The position numbers were made by a program, and so were the translations under genes. A stretch of 64,000 nt of DNA from Candidatus Planktophila vernalis (GTDB taxonomy: Bacteria > Actinomycetota > Actinomycetes > Nanopelagicales > Nanopelagicaceae): NCBI RefSeq assembly GCF_002288185.1, contig NZ_CP016776.1, positions 62,001 through 126,000 of the forward strand, read 5' to 3'. Every line of letters begins with the position of its first letter. The stretch's first letter is position 1. The notes beneath the pieces are model-generated. The model saw only the letters and a program-made list of their open reading frames with translations. It was not told the DNA's origin and made no database searches. Shown here in pieces: positions 27,511-30,500 of the stretch.

Positions 27511-28416
27511 ATGTCCAATACGGCAATCTCAGTTACAGACCTAAGCAAGAAATATGGAGATCAAGTGGCGGTTTCCCATGCCACATTCGAAGTTCCCCTT
27601 GGAACTATCTGCGGCTTTGTCGGGCCTAATGGCTCAGGTAAAACAACGACGATGCGGATGCTCTTAGGGCTCATTACTCCAACAGGTGGCACCGGTGAAA
27701 TCTTGGGTGAATCAATTAAGCATCCAGAGAAGTATTTGCCCCGAGTTGGAGCAATGATTGAAGGACCTGCCTTCTATCCGGCGTTAAGTGGAAAAGAAAA
27801 TTTAAATGTTTTAGCCACCCTCGGCGGATTCTCAACAGATCGTGTCCAAGGATTGTTAGAACAAGTTGGTTTGGGTGATCGCGGGAAATCTAAATTTAAG
27901 ACATATTCACTTGGAATGAAACAGCGTTTAGGTATTGCGGCAGCATTGTTGCCCAATCCAAAGTTGTTGATGCTAGATGAACCAACAAACGGATTAGATC
28001 CAGAAGGAATCCAAGAAGTACGCGCGCTACTTCGCTCTCTAGCTAATGATGGAACATCCGTATTCGTTTCTTCTCACTTGCTTTCAGAGCTTGAATTGAT
28101 AAGTGATTACCTAGTCATGCTTCGCAAGGGTGAAGTTGTTTTCACTGGGAAAATGAGTGATTTAATGCTGAGCCAACAGCCAGTGATTATCGCTAAAGGT
28201 GAAAATGAGAATGACTTAACTTTGTTATTAGCAATTGCGCAGCAAGCAGGACACCATGCAACTATTCGAGATGGAGCCGTTCATGTTCAGGGTCCGGCTG
28301 ATTGGGCTATTGAGTTTAATCGCGCAGCCTTTAATGCTGGAATTACTCTTTCTCAGCTCACACCACAGTTACCAAACCTTGAAGAAACTTTCTTTGAAAT
28401 GACAGGTGACAAATAA
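27511..28416 (+). CDS. ABC transporter ATP-binding protein (ABC-2 type)
   Basis: 301 residues. Walker A GPNGSGKTTT is near residues 38-47, the signature YSLGMKQRLG near 134, Walker B LLMLDEPTNGLDPEG near 154 and the switch His in SSHLLSELE. The ~80 C-terminal residues form an extra domain common in DrrA/BcrA-like exporters. With the overlapping permease it should form an exporter for a peptide, lipid or antibiotic-like compound; the substrate is unknown. AGGA precedes the ATG by about 9 nt. Confidence 0.9.
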   Translation: MSNTAISVTDLSKKYGDQVAVSHATFEVPLGTICGFVGPNGSGKTTTMRMLLGLITPTGGTGEILGESIKHPEKYLPRVGAMIEGPAFYPALSGKENLNVLATLGGFSTDRVQGLLEQVGLGDRGKSKFKTYSLGMKQRLGIAAALLPNPKLLMLDEPTNGLDPEGIQEVRALLRSLANDGTSVFVSSHLLSELELISDYLVMLRKGEVVFTGKMSDLMLSQQPVIIAKGENENDLTLLLAIAQQAGHHATIRDGAVHVQGPADWAIEFNRAAFNAGITLSQLTPQLPNLEETFFEMTGDK

Positions 28417-29222
28417 TGTGGAATGTAGCTTTTGCAGAACTACGCAAACTCCGTCGCCCTACTTTGTTTTTTGGCACCATGGGAGCAGTTGTATTCTTCA
28501 GCGCACTCTTTTCATCACTCTTATTTCTACTCATTGATTCACCACAGGGAAACTCTGATCGTGGACGCACAGTTGGTCGCGAAGTACTAGGTCTTGCAAC
28601 AGGTGGGGTTCAGGGATTTAGCAATGTGGGTGGATTTTTAGGAATCATCGCCCTCTGTGTCTTTGCCGCGCAAACTGCTCAGGAATATACCTATGGAACT
28701 CTACGTAATTTATTAGTTCGACAACCTGGACGTCTGCGCATATTGCTTGGCAAATTCGTTGCGATGAAGTTGTTTGCATTGCTCATGATTGTTTTATCAG
28801 CCATTGTGAGTATCGGTGCTTCTGTGATTTTGGCCCCAGGGGCCGAAGTTTCAACTGATCTTTGGTTTGGCGCAGATGGTCGCCATGCAATCTTTACAAC
28901 CTTTATAAACGTCACAATTTCAGTCATTGGCTTTGGAACCATTGGAATGGTGCTTGGTTTGCTACTTCGCTCACCTATCAGTGCGATTTCATTTGGTGTT
29001 TTATGGTTACTGATCGTTGAAAACCTATTGATCGCAGTTAAAAACTCTTGGGAAAAGTGGCTACCAGGTGCACAGCTCAATGCAATCGCAACTGGCGGAG
29101 GCCCAACTGGACGTTCAGAGGGAATCGAATTTTCACAGGCACTTCTAGTTGGTGGAATCTATGTTGCTATTGGGGCAACGGTTGCATCATTCCTATTTGT
29201 GCGCCGTGATGTAGCTAATTAG
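28416..29222 (+). CDS. ABC-2 type transporter permease
   Basis: 268-residue membrane protein with about six hydrophobic segments. It begins inside the ATPase stop (TAATG), so the two are made together. The N terminus MWNVAFAELRKLRRP is the amphipathic elbow helix usual in ABC-2 permeases, and a conserved AQEYTYGTLRNLLVRQPGR stretch follows helix 2. Half-size, so a homodimer is expected. Substrate unknown. Confidence 0.88.
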   Translation: MWNVAFAELRKLRRPTLFFGTMGAVVFFSALFSSLLFLLIDSPQGNSDRGRTVGREVLGLATGGVQGFSNVGGFLGIIALCVFAAQTAQEYTYGTLRNLLVRQPGRLRILLGKFVAMKLFALLMIVLSAIVSIGASVILAPGAEVSTDLWFGADGRHAIFTTFINVTISVIGFGTIGMVLGLLLRSPISAISFGVLWLLIVENLLIAVKNSWEKWLPGAQLNAIATGGGPTGRSEGIEFSQALLVGGIYVAIGATVASFLFVRRDVAN

Positions 29223-29270
29223 AGACACCAGCACCTAAACACACGGTTTTCTAAAGAACACCATTTATTA

Positions 29271-29296
29271 TTAAGGCCTTCCCCCGGAGGTCTTAA
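29271..29296 (+). promoter_or_regulatory. Hairpin sequestering the Shine-Dalgarno of the NlpC/P60 gene
   Basis: Arms 29271-29281 and 29286-29296 form an 11-pair stem (9 Watson-Crick, 2 G-U) with a CCCC loop. GGAGG, the only ribosome-binding sequence before the TTG start at 29298, is entirely within the 3' arm. This would limit translation until the stem opens. It could act as a thermosensor-like or protein-controlled switch. A TATTAT at 29266-29271 is a possible -10; if used, the transcript would start within the stem, so the TSS matters. Confidence 0.55.
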
Positions 29297-29297
29297 C

Positions 29298-30500
29298 TTG
29301 AAAAAATACCGAGCGATTTCACTCGCTCTTGCCCTTGGTCTGACGCTCACAACAGCGCCGGCTTTGGCAAAGACCCCCAAACCAACATTGGCTGAAATTG
29401 AAGCTGCAAAAAAAGTTGAAGCTGCAAAGAAAAAAGCTGCTGATGCCCAGGCGGCAAAATTGGCTAAAGCCAATCAAAGTCTTAGAACTCTAACTGCGAA
29501 AGCAAATGCAGCTACTGCTCTTTATGTGAAAGCTCAAAGAGAGTTGGCGGTGGCCGTAGCAGCTGCGCGCGCTGCAGCTCAATATGCAGCAGAAACTGCC
29601 GCCTCAGTTTCAGAAGCGCATCAAGTTATTGGACGGCTTGCAACAAATGCTTACATTATGGGTGGAAGCATGACCGACATTGAACCGTTACTTAGTTCCA
29701 ATGGACCACAGGATTTAATAGATCAATTAAGCACACTCAGTAACTTAGGAACTAAGAATTCAATTGCACTCGATCGCTTTAAAGCCGCAGAAGTAATTGC
29801 GCGAGCCGCGAAAAAGGCAGCAGATGAAGCAAAGGCTGTGCAGGAAACTGCAACCGAAAAGGTGGAAGCTGCAAAGAAAGTTGCAGATGATGCAAAAGCT
29901 GAACAGGCAAAAGAAGTTGCAAAATTACAAAAGGTGCAAGATGCTTTAATGAAAGAGTTGATGAGTGCTAGAAAAGTTAGAACAACTCTAGAACAGCAGA
30001 GACAGTTGGCTTTGCTTGAAGAATCTCAAGCTAATCAAGCGACACAAACTGTTGGGCAAAAGAATGTGTGGCCAAATATTGGCTTCAAGGGGCGTTCGAC
30101 AATTAGAACTACACAAGCAGAGCGAGATAAAGCTGTGGCATTTGCTAAGACTCAAGTTCTTGCGCGAAAGCCATATGTTTGGGGCTCTGAGGGGCCAAAT
30201 ACTTTTGACTGCTCTGGTTTGGTTTATGCCGCATATAAATATGCAGGACTCGGATGGCCTAACTGGGATCGCCTGAACTCTGCGTTGTATTCGGGCTATA
30301 CAAAGCATGTTTCACTCAATGAGTTGGTGCCAGGAGATCTTCTGTTCTATTCCTACAAGGGAACAATTTCAACGATTCACCACATCACCATTTACGCTGG
30401 AAACGGCATGATGTGGGAGGCCAACTCCAAGGGCAAGGGCCTTTTGTACTCAAATATCTACAGCATTAAGGGCTTAATGCCATTTGGTGGTCGGGTCTAG
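29298..30500 (+). CDS. NlpC/P60 peptidoglycan hydrolase with coiled-coil N-terminal region
   Basis: 400 residues from a TTG start immediately after GGAGG. Signal peptide about 1-25 (ending PALAK). Residues ~30-250 are Ala/Lys/Glu-rich and strongly coiled-coil-like, as in RipA/CwlO-type hydrolases. The C-terminal NlpC/P60 domain has the catalytic Cys in FDCSGLVYA near residue 304 and His in TIHHITIYAG near residue 360. It cleaves peptide cross-bridges or stems at the cell wall during division or growth; the coiled coil probably holds it inactive until an activator binds. Confidence 0.9.
   Translation: MKKYRAISLALALGLTLTTAPALAKTPKPTLAEIEAAKKVEAAKKKAADAQAAKLAKANQSLRTLTAKANAATALYVKAQRELAVAVAAARAAAQYAAETAASVSEAHQVIGRLATNAYIMGGSMTDIEPLLSSNGPQDLIDQLSTLSNLGTKNSIALDRFKAAEVIARAAKKAADEAKAVQETATEKVEAAKKVADDAKAEQAKEVAKLQKVQDALMKELMSARKVRTTLEQQRQLALLEESQANQATQTVGQKNVWPNIGFKGRSTIRTTQAERDKAVAFAKTQVLARKPYVWGSEGPNTFDCSGLVYAAYKYAGLGWPNWDRLNSALYSGYTKHVSLNELVPGDLLFYSYKGTISTIHHITIYAGNGMMWEANSKGKGLLYSNIYSIKGLMPFGGRV

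Follow-up and report, generated by a model that had tools for sequence, protein, structure and literature searches.

An 11-pair hairpin overlaps the putative promoter and contains the ribosome-binding site of a chromosomal NlpC/P60 hydrolase gene in Candidatus Planktophila vernalis, and the preferred reading, to which we give a probability of roughly 0.6, is that it acts as a read-through guard of the T4-lysozyme type, by which transcripts that enter from the preceding permease gene would be kept from translation. The broader proposal, that in a family of lake actinobacteria a lock against read-through arose on one wall hydrolase and was then rebuilt and replaced, with its 5' half in the untranscribed -10/+1 spacer and with the lineages that dropped the SD turning leaderless, is held more tentatively, at a little short of even odds. 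The window (the whole stretch of DNA analysed, 64,000 nucleotides) belongs to a genome of 1.36 Mb in a single contig, and the features discussed are listed in Table 1.

Table 1. Positions, in window coordinates, of the hairpin, the promoter elements and the neighbouring genes.
Feature	Position	Strand	Remarks
ABC ATPase gene (presumed)	27511..28416	+	partner of permease in upstream pair
ABC-2-type permease-like gene (presumed)	28416..29222	+	source of read-through RNA in the proposed model
GACAC box after permease stop	29224..29228	+	conserved 5' of promoter
-10 box TATTAT	29266..29271	+	conserved in relatives; putative promoter
Hairpin, 11 pairs	29271..29296	+	CCCC loop 29282-29285
5' arm	29271..29281	+	covers final base of -10 box plus -10/+1 spacer
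Predicted transcription start	29278	+	box + N6, calibrated on leaderless relatives
3' arm	29286..29296	+	holds SD GGAGG (29286-29290) with SD-start spacer
NlpC/P60 peptidoglycan hydrolase, TTG start	29298..30500	+	400 aa; Pfam NLPC_P60

The inverted repeat is composed of TTAAGGCCTTC-CCCC-GGAGGTCTTAA, with two G-U pairs among the 11, and the GGAGG lies entirely within the 3' arm, seven bases ahead of the TTG at 29298-29300. The initial annotation had described this arrangement (an 11-pair stem with a CCCC loop that buries the whole GGAGG before a TTG-start gene), and the sequence, the folding and the shuffles agree with it: the hairpin is real, with an MFE of -12.9 kcal/mol for 29271-29310 (z -3.17; none of 200 shuffles equally stable) and a z of -3.46 in a 118-nt context (1/200 shuffles equally stable). 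Masking was ranked among 17 strong-SD genes, the hydrolase included, drawn from 60 crude gene calls in the window. The hydrolase gene is the most masked of them in the -32/+15 context, where opening its SD-to-start region costs 12.9 kcal/mol (mean 6.8, sd 2.9), and ranks second with 72 bases upstream (-72/+30; 13.0 kcal/mol), while for the SD alone it ranks first of 17 in both contexts. The reading frame itself matches Pfam NLPC_P60 (E 5.5e-19; domain at residues 291-388), which upholds the cell-wall hydrolase identity first given to it, and its N-terminus appears, on our reading, signal-peptide-like. Among the carriers of close relatives of this gene are Candidatus Planktophila and other freshwater actinobacteria.

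Directly 5' of the hydrolase lies a gene on the same strand that we take, from its sequence, to be ABC-2-type permease-like, following a presumed ABC ATPase gene. A same-strand permease holds this position in 180 of the 186 loci with enough upstream sequence, a set that includes copies of one genome from two collections; the six exceptions are five paralogue loci and L200. The intergenic stretch between permease and hydrolase is 75 bases long, and a simple pattern scan of the + strand from 28309 to 30182 found no terminator-like site. The permease stop codon ends 48 bases 5' of the stem, a gap that should exceed the reach of a ribosome stopping there. The GACAC box that follows this stop codon was found in 129 of 150 unique promoters, against 10/150 after one shuffle each, and in 98 of the 129 the distance from its first base to the end of the -10 box is 46-50 bases; it is found in leaderless lineages too and is possibly an activator site. 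An MtrA-type GTTRC repeat near -35 was also considered and dropped, as few sequences carry it (2/150).

The putative promoter is placed by the -10 box, which reads TATTCT or TATCCT in many relatives and stands just 5' of the stem. Start codons in the relatives were chosen by a score with a bonus for the box-N6 spacing, and the boxes of non-canonical lineages were placed by hand from TANNNT patterns. Among 126 unique upstreams, 22 have the box followed by exactly N6 and then ATG or GTG, with no case of N4, N5, N7 or N8, and a recheck found no in-frame start upstream of the chosen one in any of the 22; judged by this geometry, they look like leaderless genes. Because these relatives place the RNA start seven bases after the box, the start in the window is expected near 29278, and our best estimate is that the gene's own RNA begins there, inside the 5' arm. 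The predicted +1 is a C, whereas purines are usual, and the purines at 29275 and 29276 are possible alternative starts. For M. tuberculosis, the available text describes TANNNT -10 boxes and many leaderless genes, with the -10 motif centred 7-12 bp before the start, which would allow 29276 here (PMC3898074). The relatives studied here resemble those leaderless mRNAs in having TANNNT boxes and leaderless genes (PMC3898074), unlike the window's hydrolase gene, which has a leader and for which the leaderless genes serve as a yardstick. That the TATTAT at 29266 might start an RNA near 29278 had been raised as a doubt about the hairpin; the conserved box and the box-N6-start geometry of the relatives bear out the start, which, in our best estimate, leaves the hairpin with a meaning but a different one, that of a guard against read-through. 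The 5' arm occupies the -10/+1 region of the putative promoter, and transcription from there therefore probably omits most of it.

The two RNAs predicted in this way differ widely in the folding model. Opening the region from SD to start falls from 12.9 kcal/mol with the 5' arm to 3.9 kcal/mol in an RNA from 29278, which ranks 14th of 17 at equal length (SD alone 3.8, rank 5/17). At 37 C this shorter RNA retains only a weak inner stem (-3.6), and given this remnant and the openings of 3.9 vs 12.9, the full hairpin is probably confined to RNA that enters from the upstream permease gene. Over 99 upstreams, the median opening is 9.2 with the upstream part and 4.3 in the own RNA, a comparison in which the RNAs differ in length as well, the longer one including additional upstream sequence. 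At 15 C, the modelled SD opening is 14.8 for the full form and 7.1 for the own RNA, in which the SD is still mostly closed, and the model suggests that at the temperatures of lakes the own RNA is far from fully open.

In the proposed explanation, RNA reading through from the permease gene would carry both arms, fold the 11-pair hairpin and hide the GGAGG, so that the hydrolase would hardly be made from it. RNA from the own promoter, starting near 29278, would be without most of the 5' arm, would have a far more open SD and would be translated. Even with no terminator seen after the preceding gene, the output of the enzyme would thus depend on the promoter of its own gene. Relatives may attain the same end by other stem sequences, by leaderless mRNAs or by the start/stop overlap found in genus g25, and leaderless lineages would need no guard because they have no SD to hide.

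The closest known system is gene e (lysozyme) of phage T4, in which, according to the available text, upstream-initiated RNA folds an SD-hiding stem, and late promoters just 5' of the gene give RNA that lacks the 5' strand and is translated efficiently, the difference being put at 100-fold (PMC3014915). Similar leaders occur in related phages, some phages being without the structure (PMC3014915), and the layout of I-TevI is described as the same (PMC3014915; PMC2988022). The hydrolase gene shares with gene e the wall-lytic product, the SD hairpin in upstream RNA and the own promoter over the 5' strand, as far as sequence goes (PMC3014915). Taken element by element, an SD-hiding stem in upstream-initiated RNA is found by the folding model, the promoter over the 5' strand by sequence only, the same-strand upstream genes without a terminator by the simple pattern scan, and the pairing is retained despite altered sequence in 14/19 lineages, with exceptions. 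Unlike gene e, the gene here is a bacterial chromosomal one with a sigma-A-like -10 and no early/late programme known, and its stems occur in changing letters over a bacterial family together with leaderless replacements.

Selection on the arms was assessed by a lineage-swap test on 116 sequences, in which 9 bases (from the last box base to +2) were paired with up to 17 bases lying directly 5' of the start codon, and the native pairing was compared with pairing to the partners of other lineages. The native pairing was better in 34/51, 24/38, 14/19 and 7/10 lineages at four clustering depths (p 0.00004, 0.00006, 0.0003 and 0.0007, respectively). Covariation of the arms in related genomes, which the initial annotation had proposed as a check, is thus found between lineages. 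The seven bases missing from the own RNA gave a surplus by themselves (p 0.0008 with 38 lineages; 0.005 with 19), and in a 19-lineage scan that began 40 bases upstream and took sixteen 7-base pieces, the surplus appeared solely at two positions spanning the spacer and +3. The segment +1..+5 was null (p 0.95, 19 lineages), as were pieces further upstream, and capping the energies left the swap results nearly unchanged. With a start at N4 instead, the result for the untranscribed bases by themselves would be borderline (p 0.04; 0.085 with capped energies).

When the upstream piece was dinucleotide-shuffled, the native SD opening was higher in 17/20 lineages (p 0.001). The swap test on opening energies was weak (14/21 lineages, p 0.09), and the opening energies gave p 0.065 against shuffles (13/21 lineages) and, when leaderless spacers were the comparison, p 0.011. 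For nlpC, scanning at fixed distances reached a best p of 0.023, weaker than the promoter-aligned scan. The control start regions of abcATP, tilS and hpt were null; for ftsH, one of ten scan windows reached p 0.003, so that some unevenness exists among the controls, and that of the permease consisted of one lineage only and hence was empty. Identical upstreams were counted once, and repeated genomes or leaders were not re-entered; L180-L199 were unused because the same genomes are covered by L200-L253, and L254-L280 were inspected only. Left out were the paralogues (L002, L003, L004, L033, L169, L176, L177, L251 and L252), partial genes (L031, L032 and L250), L112 and L234 with too little upstream, sequences in which the leader after the box exceeds 37 bases (L147-L151, L157, L160, L161, L210-L212 and L229), operon-type loci (L165-L167 and L178) and loci without a clear box (L168, L201 and L204); L126 was left out of the swap test.

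Within the clade of the window, the five innermost pairs, which join 29277-29281 to 29286-29290, are unbroken in 23/23 sequences and the outer six are kept in 15 to 22 of the 23, the lowest count belonging to 29276/29291, which pairs in only 15. The changes in this clade are mostly one-sided, with one double change (29275/29292 in L129), which makes this clade little informative on selection. The clearest single case of re-made arms is, from the sequences, that of the sister species L103 and L107 (SH-aLRT 100), which differ at 4/6 spacer bases, 6/11 last leader bases and only 3/8 bases between, so that the differences fall mainly in the arms; their stems from the box reach -13.2 and -10.1 kcal/mol, respectively, and neither is present in the own RNA. 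L254 shares the leader of L107, and its protein is 92% identical to that of L103. Similarly, genus g31 has six species with a TAAAAT box (L154, L155, L156, L179, L206 and L208) and six different spacers, and 5/6 fold a stem of -5.4 kcal/mol or better, L179 reaching only -2.6; the group of L179 and L206 fails the duplex swap test. Stable folds are absent from the own RNA of L103, L107, L070 and L208 and almost absent from that of L156.

On this sequence record, the guard would be common but not universal among the relatives. Five of 19 lineages are without a better-than-swapped stem, namely the groups of L014 (11 sequences), L086 (10), L109 (2), L179 (2) and L215 (1). At the g25 loci L165, L166, L167 and L178, the hydrolase ATG overlaps the stop of an apparent permease tail, which leaves no room for a promoter, and the hydrolase there looks fused into the permease operon. 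In the long-leader loci L147-L151, L160 and L161, the SD is costly to open in the own RNA too (5.3-8.9 kcal/mol).

This SD-near structure within a long leader is one of the points that speak for an attenuator or switch in the gene's own transcript, by which a start between 29272 and 29276 would leave 6-10 pairs in the mRNA to set the level of translation or to sense a protein, an RNA or temperature. If transcription began at G29275 or G29276, 7 or 6 pairs would remain, with openings of 8.5 or 6.2 kcal/mol, and the unbroken inner pairs of the window clade would suit such a role; the box-to-start distance of seven bases in 22/22 leaderless relatives and the missing folds in the own RNAs listed above do not. 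A search of 29000-29500 against Rfam gave no match at E<=1, and the full stem stays unmelted from 4 to 50 C in the model. On balance, the attenuator is unlikely. For an RNA thermosensor in particular, the SD was unpaired only 0.3-1.1% over that range in the full stem (model only), and this candidate was rejected. Of the deliberate translational control first suggested for the hairpin, the burial of the SD in a real, co-varying stem stands, whereas a switch within the hydrolase mRNA itself, driven by temperature or by a protein, is unsupported, given the lack of melting and of an Rfam match and the position of the 5' arm in the promoter.

A neutral by-product is a more improbable account, in which a C/U-rich leader start would pair with the purine-rich SD by composition and the outer pairs would stem from the T/A-rich -10 box and spacer. 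It would accommodate the five lineages without the stem, the mainly one-sided changes of the window clade, where an invariant CTTCC explains the inner pairs, and the weak swap test on opening energies. The surplus nevertheless persists in swap and shuffle tests that keep composition, it is confined to one place in the swap scan, and the start regions of neighbouring genes are mostly null. It is very improbable that the repeat is a DNA operator with incidental RNA pairing, since sister species differ in the letters of the arms: L103 and L107 keep the pairing with changed arms, whereas operators are conserved by sequence, and the window stem contains G-U pairs. The repeat over -10/+1 does lie where a repressor would act, and in the 19-lineage test the antisense surplus is similar to the sense one (-1.11 vs -1.16). 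With 38 lineages, the sense gain is the larger (-1.10 vs -0.67, p 0.09), and the sense MFE lies below the antisense in 23/38 representatives (p 0.023), so that the surplus of sense over antisense pairing is suggestive and weak.

If the read-through guard is true, one short DNA segment would be both a promoter spacer and an anti-read-through RNA arm, and a -10/+1 spacer would be selected for RNA pairing never used by the gene's own transcript. Small genomes could then separate neighbouring genes without a terminator, and compact genomes may often be insulated by SD locks of this kind, encoded in promoter spacers and so far overlooked. A phage timing trick, that of T4 lysozyme, would have been carried to a chromosomal wall hydrolase of freshwater bacteria, which are widespread. 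The gene also occurs in leadered, leaderless and stop/start-overlapping versions, which together form a natural series. The setting is what is new, namely a chromosomal wall hydrolase, the bacterial family, the re-lettered stems and the 5' half in the promoter spacer, and the principle is already known; a limited search of the open-licence literature found no bacterial chromosomal gene with such a device, which does not prove that there is none.

In the transposase genes of IS10 and IS50, read-through RNA masks its own start and RNA from the internal promoter does not, and the proposed guard resembles this protection from outside transcription in that the read-through RNA would be masked, unlike those systems in that they belong to the ends of mobile elements and the gene here is a host gene. 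In C. glutamicum, nlpC is described as being under a ydaO-type c-di-AMP riboswitch, with control at the RNA level and probably of translation (PMC9960051). The likeness is that of an actinobacterial NlpC gene with proposed RNA-level control (PMC9960051), unlike which the present locus has a 75-base intergenic stretch with no aptamer and no Rfam match; a ydaO riboswitch was accordingly rejected (no match at the gathering score). As described in the available text, similar predicted SD-hiding hairpins of PvuII had no effect when broken (PMC2997769), which calls for caution with the predicted SD-hiding stem here.

A few further observations concern individual loci. The g31 sequences L209, L210, L211, L212 and L229 have long leaders, and inspection by eye suggests in them a further stem around a CCCC-containing loop 5' of the SD, with letters that differ between the species. 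In L126, the GGAGG of the leader is itself the predicted RNA start, and its complement CCTCC lies in the -10/+1 spacer. L002 and L003 (G000:C1:410797-411969 and 410135-410749) represent a 61% identical paralogue closely preceded by a second NlpC-like match, and the upstream region of this locus differs.
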